This document shows, piece after piece, positions 391-27,700 of a stretch of 64,000 nucleotides of DNA (positions within the stretch are counted from its first letter, which is position 1; every line of letters starts with the position of its first letter). Position numbers and translations under genes: made by a program. The notes beneath the pieces are model-generated. The model saw nothing but the letters and a program-made list of their open reading frames with translations. It was not told the origin of the DNA and made no database searches. This stretch comes from Gemmataceae bacterium (GTDB lineage Bacteria > Planctomycetota > Planctomycetia > Gemmatales > Gemmataceae). The stretch is taken from contig LR594584.1 of the NCBI GenBank assembly GCA_901538445.1, forward strand, positions 3,652,055 through 3,716,054, written 5' to 3'.

Positions 391-438
391 CCCATGAGAG
401 TCACGCTTGTCCGCCTGTTCACCGACCGGGCCGTCCTC

Positions 439-3400
439 ATGGCGAAGTGCTTCTGCCACCTGCACCTGCACACCCACTACAGCCTGCTCGACGGCTTCAA
501 CCGGATCCCGCCCCTCGTCCAGCAGACGAAGAAGCTCGGGATGACGGCCTGCGCGATCACGGACCACGGGAACCTGTACGGGGCGATCGAGTTCTACAAC
601 GAGTGCAAGAAGCACGACGTCAAGCCGATCATCGGGTACGAGGCGTACCTCGCGCCGGGGAGCCGCACGGACCGCAAGGCCGCGAACCAGGACAAGGCGT
701 ACAGCCACCTCACGCTCCTGGCGAAGAACGTCACGGGGTACAAGAACCTCGTGAAGCTGTCGAGCATCGCGTTCCTGGAGGGGTTCTACTACCACCCGCG
801 GATCGACCGGGAGGTCCTGGAGGCCCACAAGGAGGGGCTTATCTGCCTGAGCGGGTGCCTGGCCGGGGAGTTCAACCAGCACATCATCAAGGACCAGATC
901 CCGGAGGCCGAGAAGACGGCGAGGTGGTTCAGCAAGCAGTTCGGCGAGGACTACTACATCGAGCTGCAGAACAACGGGATCTCGCTCCAGGACCAGTGTA
1001 CGCCGGTGGCGACGGACATCGCCAACAAGCTGGGCATCCCGCTCGTTGCGACGGCCGACGCCCACTACCTGAACGCCAGCGACGCGACCGCGCACGACGT
1101 GCTGTTCTGCATCAACACGCGCCGCAAGCACGACCCGCGGAAGCGGCTGTACCCCGAAGAGAAGATGCCGAACCCGTACTTCGTCCGGAGCCCGGACGAC
1201 ATGTACAACCTGTTCCCGAACCACCAGGACGCGGTGGCCCGGAGCCAGGAGATCGCGGACAAGATCGACATCCAGCTCGACTTCAAGAAGCGGCACTTCC
1301 CGGTGTTCGCCCCGCCCCCGGGCCGCACCCCCGAGGAGTTCCTCCGCGAGCTGTGCGAGGCCGGGGTCAGGGACCGGTACGGGGACAACCCGAGCGAGGC
1401 GGTGAAGAAGCGCCTCGACCACGAGCTGGCGACCATCAACAAGATGGGGTTCGCGAGCTACTTCCTGATCGTGTGGGACTTCGTGCGGTTCGCGCGCGAG
1501 AGCGGGATCCCCTGCACGGCCCGCGGCTCCGGCTGCGGGGCGCTGGCGTGCTACGCGCTGTACCTGAGCCACGTGTGCCCGCTGGAGTACGACCTGCTGT
1601 TCGAGCGGTTCCTCGACCCGAACCGGTCGGAGGCGCCCGACATCGACATCGACTTCTGCCAGGACCGCCGGGAACTGGTGATCGACTACGTGAAGCGGAA
1701 GTACGGGGTCGAGTCGGTGGCGCAGATCGGCACGTTCGGGACCCTCGCGGCCAAGAACGCGATGAAGGACGTGGGCCGGGCGCTCGACGTCCCGCTGGAC
1801 CGGGTCAACCACATGTGCAAGCTCGTCCCCATGAAGGGGGCGATCGCGGCCGACCTGGCCGAGGCGATGGCGTCGCCGGACTTCAAGCGCGAGTACGACT
1901 CGGACCCGCAGGTCCGGGAGATGGTGGACATCGCGCTCAAGCTGGAGGGGATGAACCGCAACGTCGGGACGCACGCGGCCGGGGTGGTGATCGCCAACGG
2001 GCCGATCACCAACTACGTCCCGGTGCAGCGGATCGTGCGGAAGGCCGACTCCGACGACGCCGCGGGCGGCTCGATCGCCGTCACCACGCAGTGGGAAATG
2101 GGCATCATCGAGAAGGTCGGGATGCTCAAGATGGACTTCCTGGGGTTGCGGAACCTCACGGTCCTCGACAACTGCGTGCGGCTCATCAAGAAGACCCGCG
2201 GGCTCGACATCGACCCGATGAAGTTCCCGCTCACCGACCCGGACACGTACAAGCTGCTCCAGCGCGGCGACGCCAAGGGCGTGTTCCAGTTGGAGTCGGA
2301 GGGCATCCGCGAGCTGCTCAAGCGGATGAAGCCGGACAACATCCGCGACCTGATCGCGGTGCTCGCGCTGTACCGCCCGGGGCCGCTCGAGGGCGGCATG
2401 GTGGACGAGTACATCGAGTGCAAGCACGGCCGCCGCAAGCCGGTGTACCCGCACCCGGTGATGGAGGAGGTGCTGAGCGAGACGTACGGGGTGATGGTGT
2501 ACCAGGAGCAGGTGATGCGGATCCTGAACCGGCTCGGGGGGATCGAGCTGGCCAAGGCATACGCCTGCATCAAGGCGATCTCGAAGAAGAACTTCGAGAT
2601 CATCAACGCCCGCAAGGCCGACTTCGTCGTCGGGGCGAAAGAAAAGGGCATGGCCGAGGAGAAGGCCACCGAGATATTTGAACTCATTGTCAAATTCGGA
2701 GGCTACGGATTCAACAAATCACATACCGCCGCTTACGCTCAAATCGGGTACCAGACGGCGTACCTGAAGACGCACTACACGGCCGAGTACATGGCGGCGC
2801 TGCTGTCGTCGGAGATCGACGACGGGAACAAGCGGGACATGCTGGTGGACCACATCGCCGACGCCCGCAAGCTGGGCATCGAGGTGCTGCCCCCGGACGT
2901 GAACCGCGGCCGGGCCGACTTCGACGTCCACAACAACCGCATCCTGTTCGGCCTCACCGCCATCAAGGGGCTGGGCCGCAGCGCCGCCGAGGAGATCGTC
3001 CGCGCCCGCGACCAGGGCGGGAAGTTCAAGGACTTCTTCGACTTCAGCGAGCGGATCGACCGGCGGATCGTCCAGAAGTCCGCGGTCGAGCGGATGGTGA
3101 TGGCCGGGGCGTTCGACCCGTTCGGGAAGCGGTCGGCGCACTTCAACGCGGTCGCCAAGGCGTTCCAGGCGGCCGACGAGCGGGCCGCGGACCGCCGCCG
3201 CGGGCAGAAGAGCTTCCTCGACATGTTCGAGGCGGGCGACGACGCGGCCGGGGGCGGGGGCGGCCGCGGGCCGGGGCACGGGCTCCCCGAGATCGACGAG
3301 TGGCCCGAGCGGGAGAAGCTGAAGTTCGAGAAGGAGGCGCTCGACTTCTACATGTCGAGCCACCCGCTCGCGCAGTACGACGAGCAGCTCCGCCGGTTCC

Positions 3401-3966
3401 GCACGCACGACGCGGCCGACCTCGCCAAGGCCAAGGACAAGACCGAGGCCCGCGCCGGCGGGATGATCGCCAACCTGGAGGTCCGCACCGCGAACAAGGG
3501 CCGCAACACCGGCCGCAAGTACGCCACGTTCCGCATCGAGGACTTCACCGGGTCGGTGCGGTGCATCATGTGGTCCGACGAGTACGCCCGGTACCAGGCG
3601 ATGGTATCGGCCGACGCGGTCCACCTGTTCGAGGGGACACTGAACTGGGCCCCGGAACGGGCCGAGCCCGACTTCCAGGTGAAGAAGGTACTCACCATCG
3701 ACGAGGCCCGGGCCGAGTTCACCAAGAGTATGCTCATCAAGCTGGCGTACACCGAGGACGAGGGGAGCCTGCGGAAGCTCGACGCGGTGTCGCTGGTGCT
3801 GAAGCGGTACCGCGGGACGTGCCCGGTGTACCTGAGCGTCCGGGACGGGAACGGGAAGCAGGTGCAACTCAAGCTGAACGAGGAGTTCCGGGTGAACCCC
3901 GGGGCGCTCAAGGTCGAGGAACTCGAGATGGTCCTCGGCCCGGGCGCGGTGCTGTTCTCGCGGTAG
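439..3966 (+). CDS. dnaE: DNA polymerase III subunit alpha
   Basis: Catalytic subunit of the replicative DNA polymerase, 1175 residues (E. coli has 1160). It opens with a PHP domain (HLHLHTHYSLLDG, residues 7-19, and TDHG). The polymerase palm follows with PDIDIDF, giving D401 and D403, and the third aspartate at about D566 (KMDFLGLRN). Then come the fingers, a helix-hairpin-helix region and a C-terminal OB fold near residues 1010-1090. All PHP metal ligands known from proofreading DnaE proteins appear present, unlike the degenerate E. coli domain. I chose the ATG at 439 because MAKCFCHLHLHTHYS matches the usual N-terminus; an in-frame ATG at 394 would add 15 unconserved residues. Codons at 2674-2745 are strikingly atypical (separate entry). 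The gene converges on the next one with two bases between stop codons. Confidence 0.97.
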   Translation: MAKCFCHLHLHTHYSLLDGFNRIPPLVQQTKKLGMTACAITDHGNLYGAIEFYNECKKHDVKPIIGYEAYLAPGSRTDRKAANQDKAYSHLTLLAKNVTGYKNLVKLSSIAFLEGFYYHPRIDREVLEAHKEGLICLSGCLAGEFNQHIIKDQIPEAEKTARWFSKQFGEDYYIELQNNGISLQDQCTPVATDIANKLGIPLVATADAHYLNASDATAHDVLFCINTRRKHDPRKRLYPEEKMPNPYFVRSPDDMYNLFPNHQDAVARSQEIADKIDIQLDFKKRHFPVFAPPPGRTPEEFLRELCEAGVRDRYGDNPSEAVKKRLDHELATINKMGFASYFLIVWDFVRFARESGIPCTARGSGCGALACYALYLSHVCPLEYDLLFERFLDPNRSEAPDIDIDFCQDRRELVIDYVKRKYGVESVAQIGTFGTLAAKNAMKDVGRALDVPLDRVNHMCKLVPMKGAIAADLAEAMASPDFKREYDSDPQVREMVDIALKLEGMNRNVGTHAAGVVIANGPITNYVPVQRIVRKADSDDAAGGSIAVTTQWEMGIIEKVGMLKMDFLGLRNLTVLDNCVRLIKKTRGLDIDPMKFPLTDPDTYKLLQRGDAKGVFQLESEGIRELLKRMKPDNIRDLIAVLALYRPGPLEGGMVDEYIECKHGRRKPVYPHPVMEEVLSETYGVMVYQEQVMRILNRLGGIELAKAYACIKAISKKNFEIINARKADFVVGAKEKGMAEEKATEIFELIVKFGGYGFNKSHTAAYAQIGYQTAYLKTHYTAEYMAALLSSEIDDGNKRDMLVDHIADARKLGIEVLPPDVNRGRADFDVHNNRILFGLTAIKGLGRSAAEEIVRARDQGGKFKDFFDFSERIDRRIVQKSAVERMVMAGAFDPFGKRSAHFNAVAKAFQAADERAADRRRGQKSFLDMFEAGDDAAGGGGGRGPGHGLPEIDEWPEREKLKFEKEALDFYMSSHPLAQYDEQLRRFRTHDAADLAKAKDKTEARAGGMIANLEVRTANKGRNTGRKYATFRIEDFTGSVRCIMWSDEYARYQAMVSADAVHLFEGTLNWAPERAEPDFQVKKVLTIDEARAEFTKSMLIKLAYTEDEGSLRKLDAVSLVLKRYRGTCPVYLSVRDGNGKQVQLKLNEEFRVNPGALKVEELEMVLGPGAVLFSR
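2674..2745 (+). other. Atypical-codon island at the DnaE intein insertion point
   Basis: Of 24 successive dnaE codons, 13 end in A or T (ata, ttt, gaa, att, aaa, gga, gga, aaa, tca, cat, gct, gct, caa). Codons on either side almost always end in G or C. The encoded stretch is the highly conserved KFGGYGFNKSHTAAYA block. The split DnaE inteins of cyanobacteria are inserted between the Tyr and the following residue of this block. Here that junction is 2706/2707, which is also the middle of the tract. No intein is present. Confidence 0.75.
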
Positions 3967-24703: not shown

Positions 24704-27700
24704 ATGCATCAGCCCCTTGCCCGCGACCTCCTGGCCGACCTGACCGACGACCAGCGGGCCGCCGTGATGCACGGCGAGGGGCCGCTGCTCATCCTCGCCG
24801 GGGCCGGGAGCGGCAAGACCCGCGTCATCACCCGCCGCGTCGCGTACCTGCTCTCGCAGGGCATCCGCCCGAGCAACATCCTCGCGATCACCTTCACCAA
24901 CAAGGCCGCGGGCGAGATGCGGAGCCGCGTCGAGCAACTCGTGCCGGGCAACCGCGTCCTCGTCAGCACGTTCCACGCGCTCGGCGCGCGGCTCCTGCGG
25001 CAGTACGGCGAGCGGCTCGGGTTCGACCGCAACTTCACCATCTACGACATGGACGACCGCAACAAGGTCGTGAAGGCGGCGCTGGAGGCGACCGGCATCG
25101 ACAACGTGAAGTTCAGCCCGGAGCGGATCGGCGGCGCGATCAGCAAGGCGAAGAACGCCCTCGTCACCCCGCCCGAGTTCGAGAAGACCGCGACCGACTT
25201 CTTCGCCCAGACCGTCGCCAAGGTGTACCGCGGGTACGAGAAGCGGCTCCGGGCCGCGAACGCGATGGACTTCGACGACCTGCTGTACCTCCCCGCGATG
25301 GCGCTCAAGCACAACGAGGAGCTGCGGGCCGAACTCGACGCCCGGTTCCGGTACGTCCTCATCGACGAGTACCAGGACACCAACTCGGCCCAGTACCAGG
25401 TCGCCAAGCGGCTCGCCATCGACCACCCGAACCTGTGCGTCGTGGGAGATCCCGACCAGTGCCTGCTGCCCGGCACGCTCGTGGACACCCCCTCGGGACC
25501 GAAGCCGATTGAGCAGATCCGTGACGGCGATGAAGTGCTGTCGGGGATCGGATGGGGCAAGGTCGCACCGATGCCGGTGGACAAGGTGATGTTAAACCCG
25601 CACCGCGGGAAGATCATCCGCATTCAGGTCGAGGGCGGCGTCACGCTCCGCGCGACGCCCAACCACATCTGCTTCGGGCGTCTCCGGCCCGACCCCGACC
25701 GGCACCACGTGTACCTCATGTGGAAGCGCGGCATGGGGTACCGCCTGGGCACGACGCGCGGCGTGCGGACGAGCAAGAGCGGCCCGTTGATGTCCGGGCT
25801 CCAGGTCCGGACGAATCAGGAGGTCGCGGACGCGATGTGGGTCGTGAGGACGTGCGGCACCTCGTCCGAGGCCCGGTACTTCGAGCAACTCTACTCGGTG
25901 AAGTACGGCATCCCGACGATGGTGTTCTTCGTTCGCGGTCGGGGGATGGGAATCAGCCAGGACTTGATCGACCAGTTGTTCCGAGAAGTGGACACGGAAG
26001 CCGGGGCGACGCGCTTGATGGCCGATCTGCTTCTGGACCGCCGCTACCCGCACCACCGCCCCGGGGCCGTGACTCGGGGAGAAATCGCGCGCAGGTTCAT
26101 CCAGTTCACGGTATTCGGAGACCCACGGCCCAAGCAAGAGGCCCAGCGCCGCTGGCACGAACATCGGGTGCAACTCATCACGTCCGGTGTCGAGCTGCGG
26201 GAGAAGGCTCGCTCCGCCGCGCTGCCCGTGCGCAACGGGAACAAGGGAACGTGGCGGATCGAGACTTCTCGCAAGGGCTACGACGACGCCCTTGCACTCG
26301 CCGATTCAATCAACCAAGTCGATGAGTTCGAGACGGTCTCCCGCGCCCGGCTCACCGAGGGCAAGGCGTTCCCGTTCATGCCGGCGAGTCACTTGCAACC
26401 GGGCATGGTCGTGCCGGTCCGAATCGAAGGCCGGATCGAGGAACGGGTGGTTGAGTCCGTGACGTGGGAAGAGTACGACGGGTTGGTCTACGATCTGTCC
26501 GTACCCAACACTCGGAACTTCATCGCAAATGGGCTGGTCGTCCACAACTCGATTTACAAGTGGCGCGGCTCGGACATCAAGAACATCTTGGACTTTGAAC
26601 GTGACTTCCCGGCGGCGCGGGTGATCACGCTGAACAAGAACTACCGCAGCACGAAGACGATCCTGCACGCGGCCAGCACGGTCATCGACCACAACAAGCA
26701 GCGCAAGAAGAAGTCGCTCGTCACCGACAACCCGCAGGGCGAGCCGGTGCGTGTCGTCACCTACGACAACGGGCTCGACGAGGCCGAGGGAGTCGTGGTG
26801 CGGATCAAGGAGGCGGTGACCGCGGGCCGGTTCAAGTTCCGCGACCACGCCATCTTCCTGCGGATCAACGCCCTCACCCGGACCCTCGAAAGCGCGTTCG
26901 TCAAGCACGGCGTCCCGTTCCAGATCGTGAAGGGGCTCGCGTTCTTCGACCGCAAGGAAAACAAGGACGTCCTCGCGTACCTGCGGTTGCTCGCCAACCC
27001 GGCCGACACGGTCAGCTTCCTGCGGGTCGTCAACGAGCCCCCGCGGGGCATCGGCAAGGTGTCGCTCGACAAGCTCCAGTCGGTCGCCGCCGACCGCGAG
27101 ATGACGCTCATGGACGCCGCCGCCCAGGTCGCGAAGCTCACCGACATCAAGGGCAAGGCCGCGACTGGGCTCCGCGACTTCCACAAGCTCATCACCGAGT
27201 TGCGGGCGCGGCTCGACCTCCCGCCGCAAGACCTCGTGCGGCTGGTTCTCGAAAAGTCGGGCTACTCCGCGTCGCTCCGCGAGTCCGGCGAGGAAGAGGA
27301 CGCGGAGCGCTTGGCTAACATTGAGGATGTCGTGACCGCCGCCAAGCAGTTCCACGACCAGAACCCCGAGAGCACCATCGTCGACTTCCTCGAACAGATC
27401 ACCCTCGCGTCCGACACGGACGGCTGGGACGAGCAGGCCGACCACGTCTCGGTCATGACGCTGCACGCCTCGAAGGGGCTGGAGTTCCCGGTGGTGTACG
27501 TGATGGCGGTGGAAGAGGGGTTGCTCCCGCACGAGCGGAGCATGGGCCGCGAGGACGAGATTGAAGAGGAGCGGCGGCTGTGCTTCGTGGGCATGACGCG
27601 GGCGATGAAGGAGCTGTACCTCACGCACGCCCGGCTCCGCGAGTTCCGCGGGCAGATGAACTACGCAATCGAGAGCAGCTTCCTCCGCGAGTTGCCGCGG

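Follow-up and report, generated by a model that had tools for sequence, protein, structure and literature searches.

The window, a stretch of 64,000 nucleotides from the chromosome of a Gemmataceae bacterium (genome G000 in what follows), contains two genes that bear on the question of intein history, a dnaE gene that is free of any insert and a helicase gene that carries one. The features concerned are the following.

394 to 3966, plus strand: dnaE (DNA polymerase III alpha), an uninterrupted host gene with PHP, DNA_pol3_alpha, DNA_pol3_finger and HHH_6 domains
2494 to 2499, plus strand: the other DnaE intein site of the genus, following M701; it holds an intein in G007 but is empty here, and it lies in the second highest synonymous-change window of the gene
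2674 to 2745, plus strand: a tract of synonymous codons ending in A or T, from I761 to I784
2704 to 2709, plus strand: codons Y771-G772, the counterpart of the cyanobacterial DnaE split-intein position, unused here
2718 to 2719, plus strand: the junction K775|S776 (GFNK|SHTAAYA), empty here, at which at least 11 relatives carry an intein
25460 to 26548, plus strand: an intein in a UvrD/PcrA-type helicase (GDPDQ|C...VVHN|SIYKWRG), the one intein that the genome was found to contain
25457 to 25459 and 26552 to 26554: pcrA codons 252 (-1) and 254 (+2 from the junction)

The dnaE gene, whose product has 1190 amino acids, is the sole full-length copy in the genome. Codons ending in A or T make up 31 of its 1191 (2.6%), or 1.5% outside the tract, where 13 of 24 codons are of this kind (ATA, TTT, GAA, ATT, AAA, GGA, GGA, AAA, TCA, CAT, GCT, GCT and CAA); seven of these spellings (ATA, ATT, TTT, GGA, TCA, CAT and GCT) are absent from the rest of the gene. 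When the codons of dnaE were shuffled, no 24-codon window anywhere in the gene reached 13 A/T-ending codons (0 of 20,001 shuffles). The coordinates and counts given in an earlier, sequence-only reading of this DNA are therefore right, as is its statement that the encoded protein is conserved, since the amino acids of the tract are the same in the sister clade (G008 and G011), where they are mostly spelled with ordinary G/C-ending codons. The DNA sequence of the tract occurs once in the genome, and scans of the region for Rfam families, promoters and terminators gave no match at the tract.

Windows of comparable strength are found elsewhere in the genome, and it is position that sets the dnaE tract apart. 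In a background sample of 464 kb from the same genome, comprising 157 genes with a low rate of A/T-ending codons, windows with at least 11 of 24 such codons lie either at the starts of open reading frames, where the start codon is itself uncertain, or in unconserved segments. One window equals the dnaE tract at 13 of 24, in a domain-free stretch of a PAS-domain kinase (L251:14600-19732, minus strand, from codon 97, outside any Pfam domain), and another kinase has a window of 11 of 24. Because the other strong windows are confined to such places, the dnaE tract is unusual, being the only one seen within a near-invariant catalytic segment in this sample. The sequence-only reading had named two findings that would speak against an intein history, namely the same codons in all relatives and equal tracts at unrelated sites; instead, the sister clade is without the tract, and the sole equal interior tract of the own-genome sample belongs to an unconserved stretch.

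An intein does interrupt dnaE within the tract in close relatives. In 7 of 19 genomes of the genus, an in-frame insert of about 446 residues lies between ...GGYGFNK and SHTAAYA (the copy in G012 is split across two contigs); four genomes from other genera of the family have one at the same site, as does the named record Planctomyces sp. ACE_PLA29. The first residue of the congeners' insert is Cys, its last two are His-Asn, and the residue after it is Ser; the insert also has matches to the Pfam families Intein_splicing and LAGLIDADG_3 (E=1.8e-12), from which we conclude that it is an endonuclease-bearing intein. Its insertion point, 2718/2719, falls inside the tract, and the cyanobacterial Y|C position lies 12 nt upstream of this point. 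The sequence-only reading had placed the junction at 2706/2707, which we take to correspond to the cyanobacterial DnaE split-intein site (Y|CFN), and this placement was wrong: the residue at +1 of Y|G is Gly rather than a Cys, Ser or Thr nucleophile, so that the position could not splice, and the inteins of relatives follow GFNK. In G000 and its sisters G008 and G011, dnaE is without an intein, whereas other clades of the genus have one. At the second DnaE site, the intein of G007 (L036) follows codon 701, and a Cys stands where others have V702 (TYGVM|C...VVVKN|CYQEQV); in this allele a non-silent +1 residue apparently arrived together with the intein.

Across the family, silent variation in dnaE is concentrated at these same sites. 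In the family codon alignment (58 loci), the 24-codon window with the highest A/T excess lies at the intein site in the intein-bearing genes of the genus (46 A/T-ending codons against 15.5 expected, from codon 758) and again in those of other genera (37 against 17.0, from codon 769). Synonymous changes, counted on a tree of 54 dnaE genes from which codons 741-800 had been excluded, peak in windows 758-781 (z 5.4) and 702-725 (z 4.2), which are the two DnaE intein sites, with a standard deviation of 1.4 elsewhere; at the site within the tract, the excess declines to nothing within about 30 codons upstream and about 15 downstream. Sister-pair divergence also has its top window at the intein site, with a z of 7.2 or 5.2 according to the choice of pairs. 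Since this value varies with the pairing and the window statistics are overdispersed, the tree-based count is preferred, and the argument rests on it together with the pooled tract test described below. In 63 dnaE genes of other planctomycetes and other phyla, A/T-ending codons are not in excess at the site (400 against 427). Away from the known intein sites, dnaE has additional peaks of synonymous change or A/T enrichment at codons 1161-1184 and around 181-204, and the dnaE of G043 (L053) has a strong A/T tract at codons 931-954, likewise off any known intein site.

Tracts like the one in G000 are found at the same dnaE site in G081, G002, G016 and G018, and some occupied alleles have one-sided tracts, on the 5′ side in G010 and on the 3′ side in G017; the intein-bearing dnaE of G003 has none. 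The spelling GTC-AAA at V766-K767 is shared by five genomes in three clades, among both intein-bearing and empty lineages (p~0.002, calculated by hand and ignoring kinship). The closest match of the G000 tract among the dnaE genes of the family is no higher than the rest of the gene predicts. These comparisons draw on a genome set that includes many metagenome assemblies, and the A/T measure detects tracts solely in genomes with few A/T-ending codons.

The association extends to two further genes. For this test, intein sites were set by occupancy, independently of tracts, and the genomes were limited to those in which no more than 15% of codons end in A or T. Of the 17 strong tracts (p<1e-5) in dnaE, pcrA and ribonucleotide reductase, 12 touch an intein junction, where 1.0 would be expected (p=7e-12), and two others adjoin an occupied site. 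Eight of the 12 are at sites that are empty in their own genome, and the strongest tracts are among these eight; strong empty-site tracts are found in dnaE of G000 and G081, in pcrA of G018 and G081, and in the reductase of G024 and G004.

The helicase intein reported for the window by the sequence-only reading is real, and in this occupied pcrA the highest A/T window of the gene is at the intein junction (6 of 24 against 0.9). Where the pcrA site is empty, the strongest A/T tract of the gene lies at the intein site in G018 (12 against 0.7), G081 (11 against 0.7), G002 (8 against 1.7) and G082 (6 against 0.9); a family-wide A/T hotspot at the pcrA intein site is not significant, though single genomes peak there. 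Separately, pcrA of G001 (L285) has a strong A/T tract at codons 535-596, off any known intein site. Ribonucleotide reductase has four intein sites across the genus, and the strongest tract of the gene coincides with empty site 477 in G024 (15 against 2.0) and G027 (9 against 3.1), and with empty site 191 in G004 (14 against 2.4). Several inteins can occupy one reductase gene, with three in G012 (L123; sites 191, 266 and 477) and two in G007 (L114; 223 and 477). The downstream flanks of the occupied inteins of the genus show no A/T enrichment as a group; the exception is the reductase of G012, where site 477 is followed by an A/T tract.

Given this distribution, some connection between the dnaE tract and intein homing is very probable. 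The intein-related origin proposed by the sequence-only reading is upheld in this respect, in that an endonuclease-bearing intein lies within the tract in congeners and tracts gather at intein sites in three genes; what had to be given up is the exact site. Our preferred reading, to which we assign a probability of roughly 0.55, is that the tract is a homing scar of the LAGLIDADG intein at the now-empty K775|S776 site, imported by gene conversion from a divergent dnaE. The homing endonuclease would have cut intein-free dnaE at K775|S776, and a divergent dnaE template would then have served to repair the break or to replace the intein-bearing allele itself. Such a conversion would bring in foreign synonymous codons, about 45 nt of them 5′ and 24 nt 3′ of the site, at a place where the protein tolerates no change. 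Two marks of co-conversion are present, namely that the silent changes gather round an insertion point and that the homing element inserted there in congeners carries a LAGLIDADG endonuclease. Gene conversion is our first choice because the tracts are block-like, are sometimes one-sided in occupied alleles, are wider than the endonuclease target and include linked changes between clades.

Several observations count against gene conversion. A search of 392 phylum genomes turned up no donor of the tract (the best match is 79% over 68 nt); since possible donors are thinly sampled, this weakens the case for co-conversion without excluding it. Viral DnaE genes furnish no donor and are too distant, at 41% protein identity at best. 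G/C-ending codons are 0.65 identical inside tracts and 0.72 outside (p=0.2), which is no significant signal of import, and intein and extein identities correlate (r=0.91), running in parallel, so that recent long-distance transfer is not evident. To these are added the intein-bearing G003 without a tract, the unenriched downstream flanks of occupied inteins and the lack of a family-wide pcrA hotspot. As G000, G008 and G011 are without the intein and the sisters are also without the tract, the scar probably arose in the G000 lineage, or else was lost in the sisters; it could derive either from the loss of an intein gained after the split or from cutting and repair without insertion.

Selection offers another route to the same pattern. 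Silent changes at the endonuclease target may have been favoured because they render an empty site uncuttable, in which case the tract would record resistance to the intein. The strongest tracts do occur at empty sites, and in pcrA the two most A/T-enriched of 756 codons in empty congeners are those that flank the junction, I254 (14 of 16, 2.2 expected) and Q252 (13 of 16, 3.3 expected); there they are nearly always ATT and CAA, whereas the -1 codon is CAG in 5 of 5 occupied alleles (Fisher p=0.02). Similarly, S776 is the top codon in the dnaE of empty congeners, with K775 also high. However, S776 is equally enriched in occupied dnaE alleles, and the contrast between empty and occupied alleles at K775 (-1) is not significant within the genus (Fisher p=0.17). 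The tracts, moreover, span about 60-90 nt (about 70 nt in dnaE) and are wider than a typical LAGLIDADG target, and this width speaks against escape recoding being the sole cause. Single synonymous changes are also reportedly tolerated by intein endonucleases (PMC3024317). Escape from cutting is thus an unlikely explanation of the tract, but selection for an uncuttable spelling may shape the core of the site, on top of the conversion that makes the wider tract. A broader proposal, that the empty sites of the family are kept empty by endonuclease pressure that selects synonymous resistance alleles in essential genes, and that A/T scars are fossils of this arms race, usable to find ghost inteins with nothing but sequence, is somewhat speculative, and we hold it only tentatively.

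Alternatively, endonuclease breaks at the empty site may have been mended with errors, with purifying selection leaving silent changes alone. Such mutagenic repair would account for changes that are centred on the cut site and gone within tens of nucleotides, for their run towards A/T, as mutation would tend in a G/C-saturated gene, and for the fact that no donor was found; the same idea has been put forward for yeast introns (PMC5378118). Many rounds would be needed, however, for 13 silent changes in 24 codons, and the neighbouring changes that make up GTC-AAA are linked between lineages, and we regard this explanation as rather improbable. A constraint at the codon level that is independent of inteins (pausing, an RNA element, an internal promoter or an overlapping gene) would fit a weak excess in the intein-free dnaE of the family's other genera (198 against 155, window from 767), but it is very hard to reconcile with the flat profile of the 63 more distant genes, the tractless sister clade, the recurrence of the pattern at the intein sites of two other genes, and scans that returned no Rfam match or promoter-like site. 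Chance or an assembly artefact in the G000 genome can practically be set aside, despite the equal window in an unconserved part of the PAS kinase, as the tract is far from either end of its 4.9 Mb contig and like tracts stand at the same dnaE site in four other genomes.

The homing-scar reading has consequences beyond this locus. Intein loss is usually held to be traceless, because it restores the protein and the reading frame exactly; A/T-codon scars, strongest where the insert is absent, may nonetheless reveal past attacks by mobile inteins. If silent scars do persist at empty sites, past invasions would be readable from single genomes and rates of intein gain and loss would become measurable. 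The survival of an intein-free allele beside an active endonuclease, a long-standing question, could likewise be tested with natural alleles. More generally, the silent positions of conserved catalytic codons in essential genes can be strongly atypical for causes that have nothing to do with translation.

Comparisons can be made with several known systems. The cyanobacterial DnaE split intein occupies the same gene, at an insertion point 12 nt away, but its site is Y|CFN, whereas Gly follows Tyr here and this family has a contiguous intein with an endonuclease. In general, homing endonucleases cut alleles that are free of the element, and repair copies the element together with flanking DNA, a process known as co-conversion (PMC3192709, PMC10643990). 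The inteins of haloarchaeal mcm and polB offer a parallel in that they home by gene conversion, a flanking extein codon is co-converted and some alleles resist invasion, although this resistance is attributed to a changed amino acid (proline) and the changes here are silent (PMC10643990, PMC3024317). Around the mobile introns of yeast mitochondria, silent variation is elevated to a distance of about 70 nt whether or not the intron is present today, and no donor was found (Repar and Warnecke 2017, PMC5378118). The likeness is close, in that silent variation rises near insertion points, is mismatched to presence or absence and has yielded no donor; the yeast data, however, are population data on introns, whereas those presented here compare inteins between species, in three bacterial genes, and include individual strong tracts where the site is empty. 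In the plant mitochondrial cox1 gene, where at least one co-conversion tract has outlived its intron, short runs of third-position silent changes lie beside the insertion point of an endonuclease-bearing element, as they do here (PMC3192709). That element is an organellar group I intron, and its canonical tract is one-sided (3′), whereas dnaE of G000 is a bacterial chromosomal gene, the element is a protein intein and the tract extends to both sides of the insertion point. Co-conversion tracts at mobile introns are thus the known kind to which the dnaE tract is compared, and what is new is such a scar at intein sites in bacterial genes.
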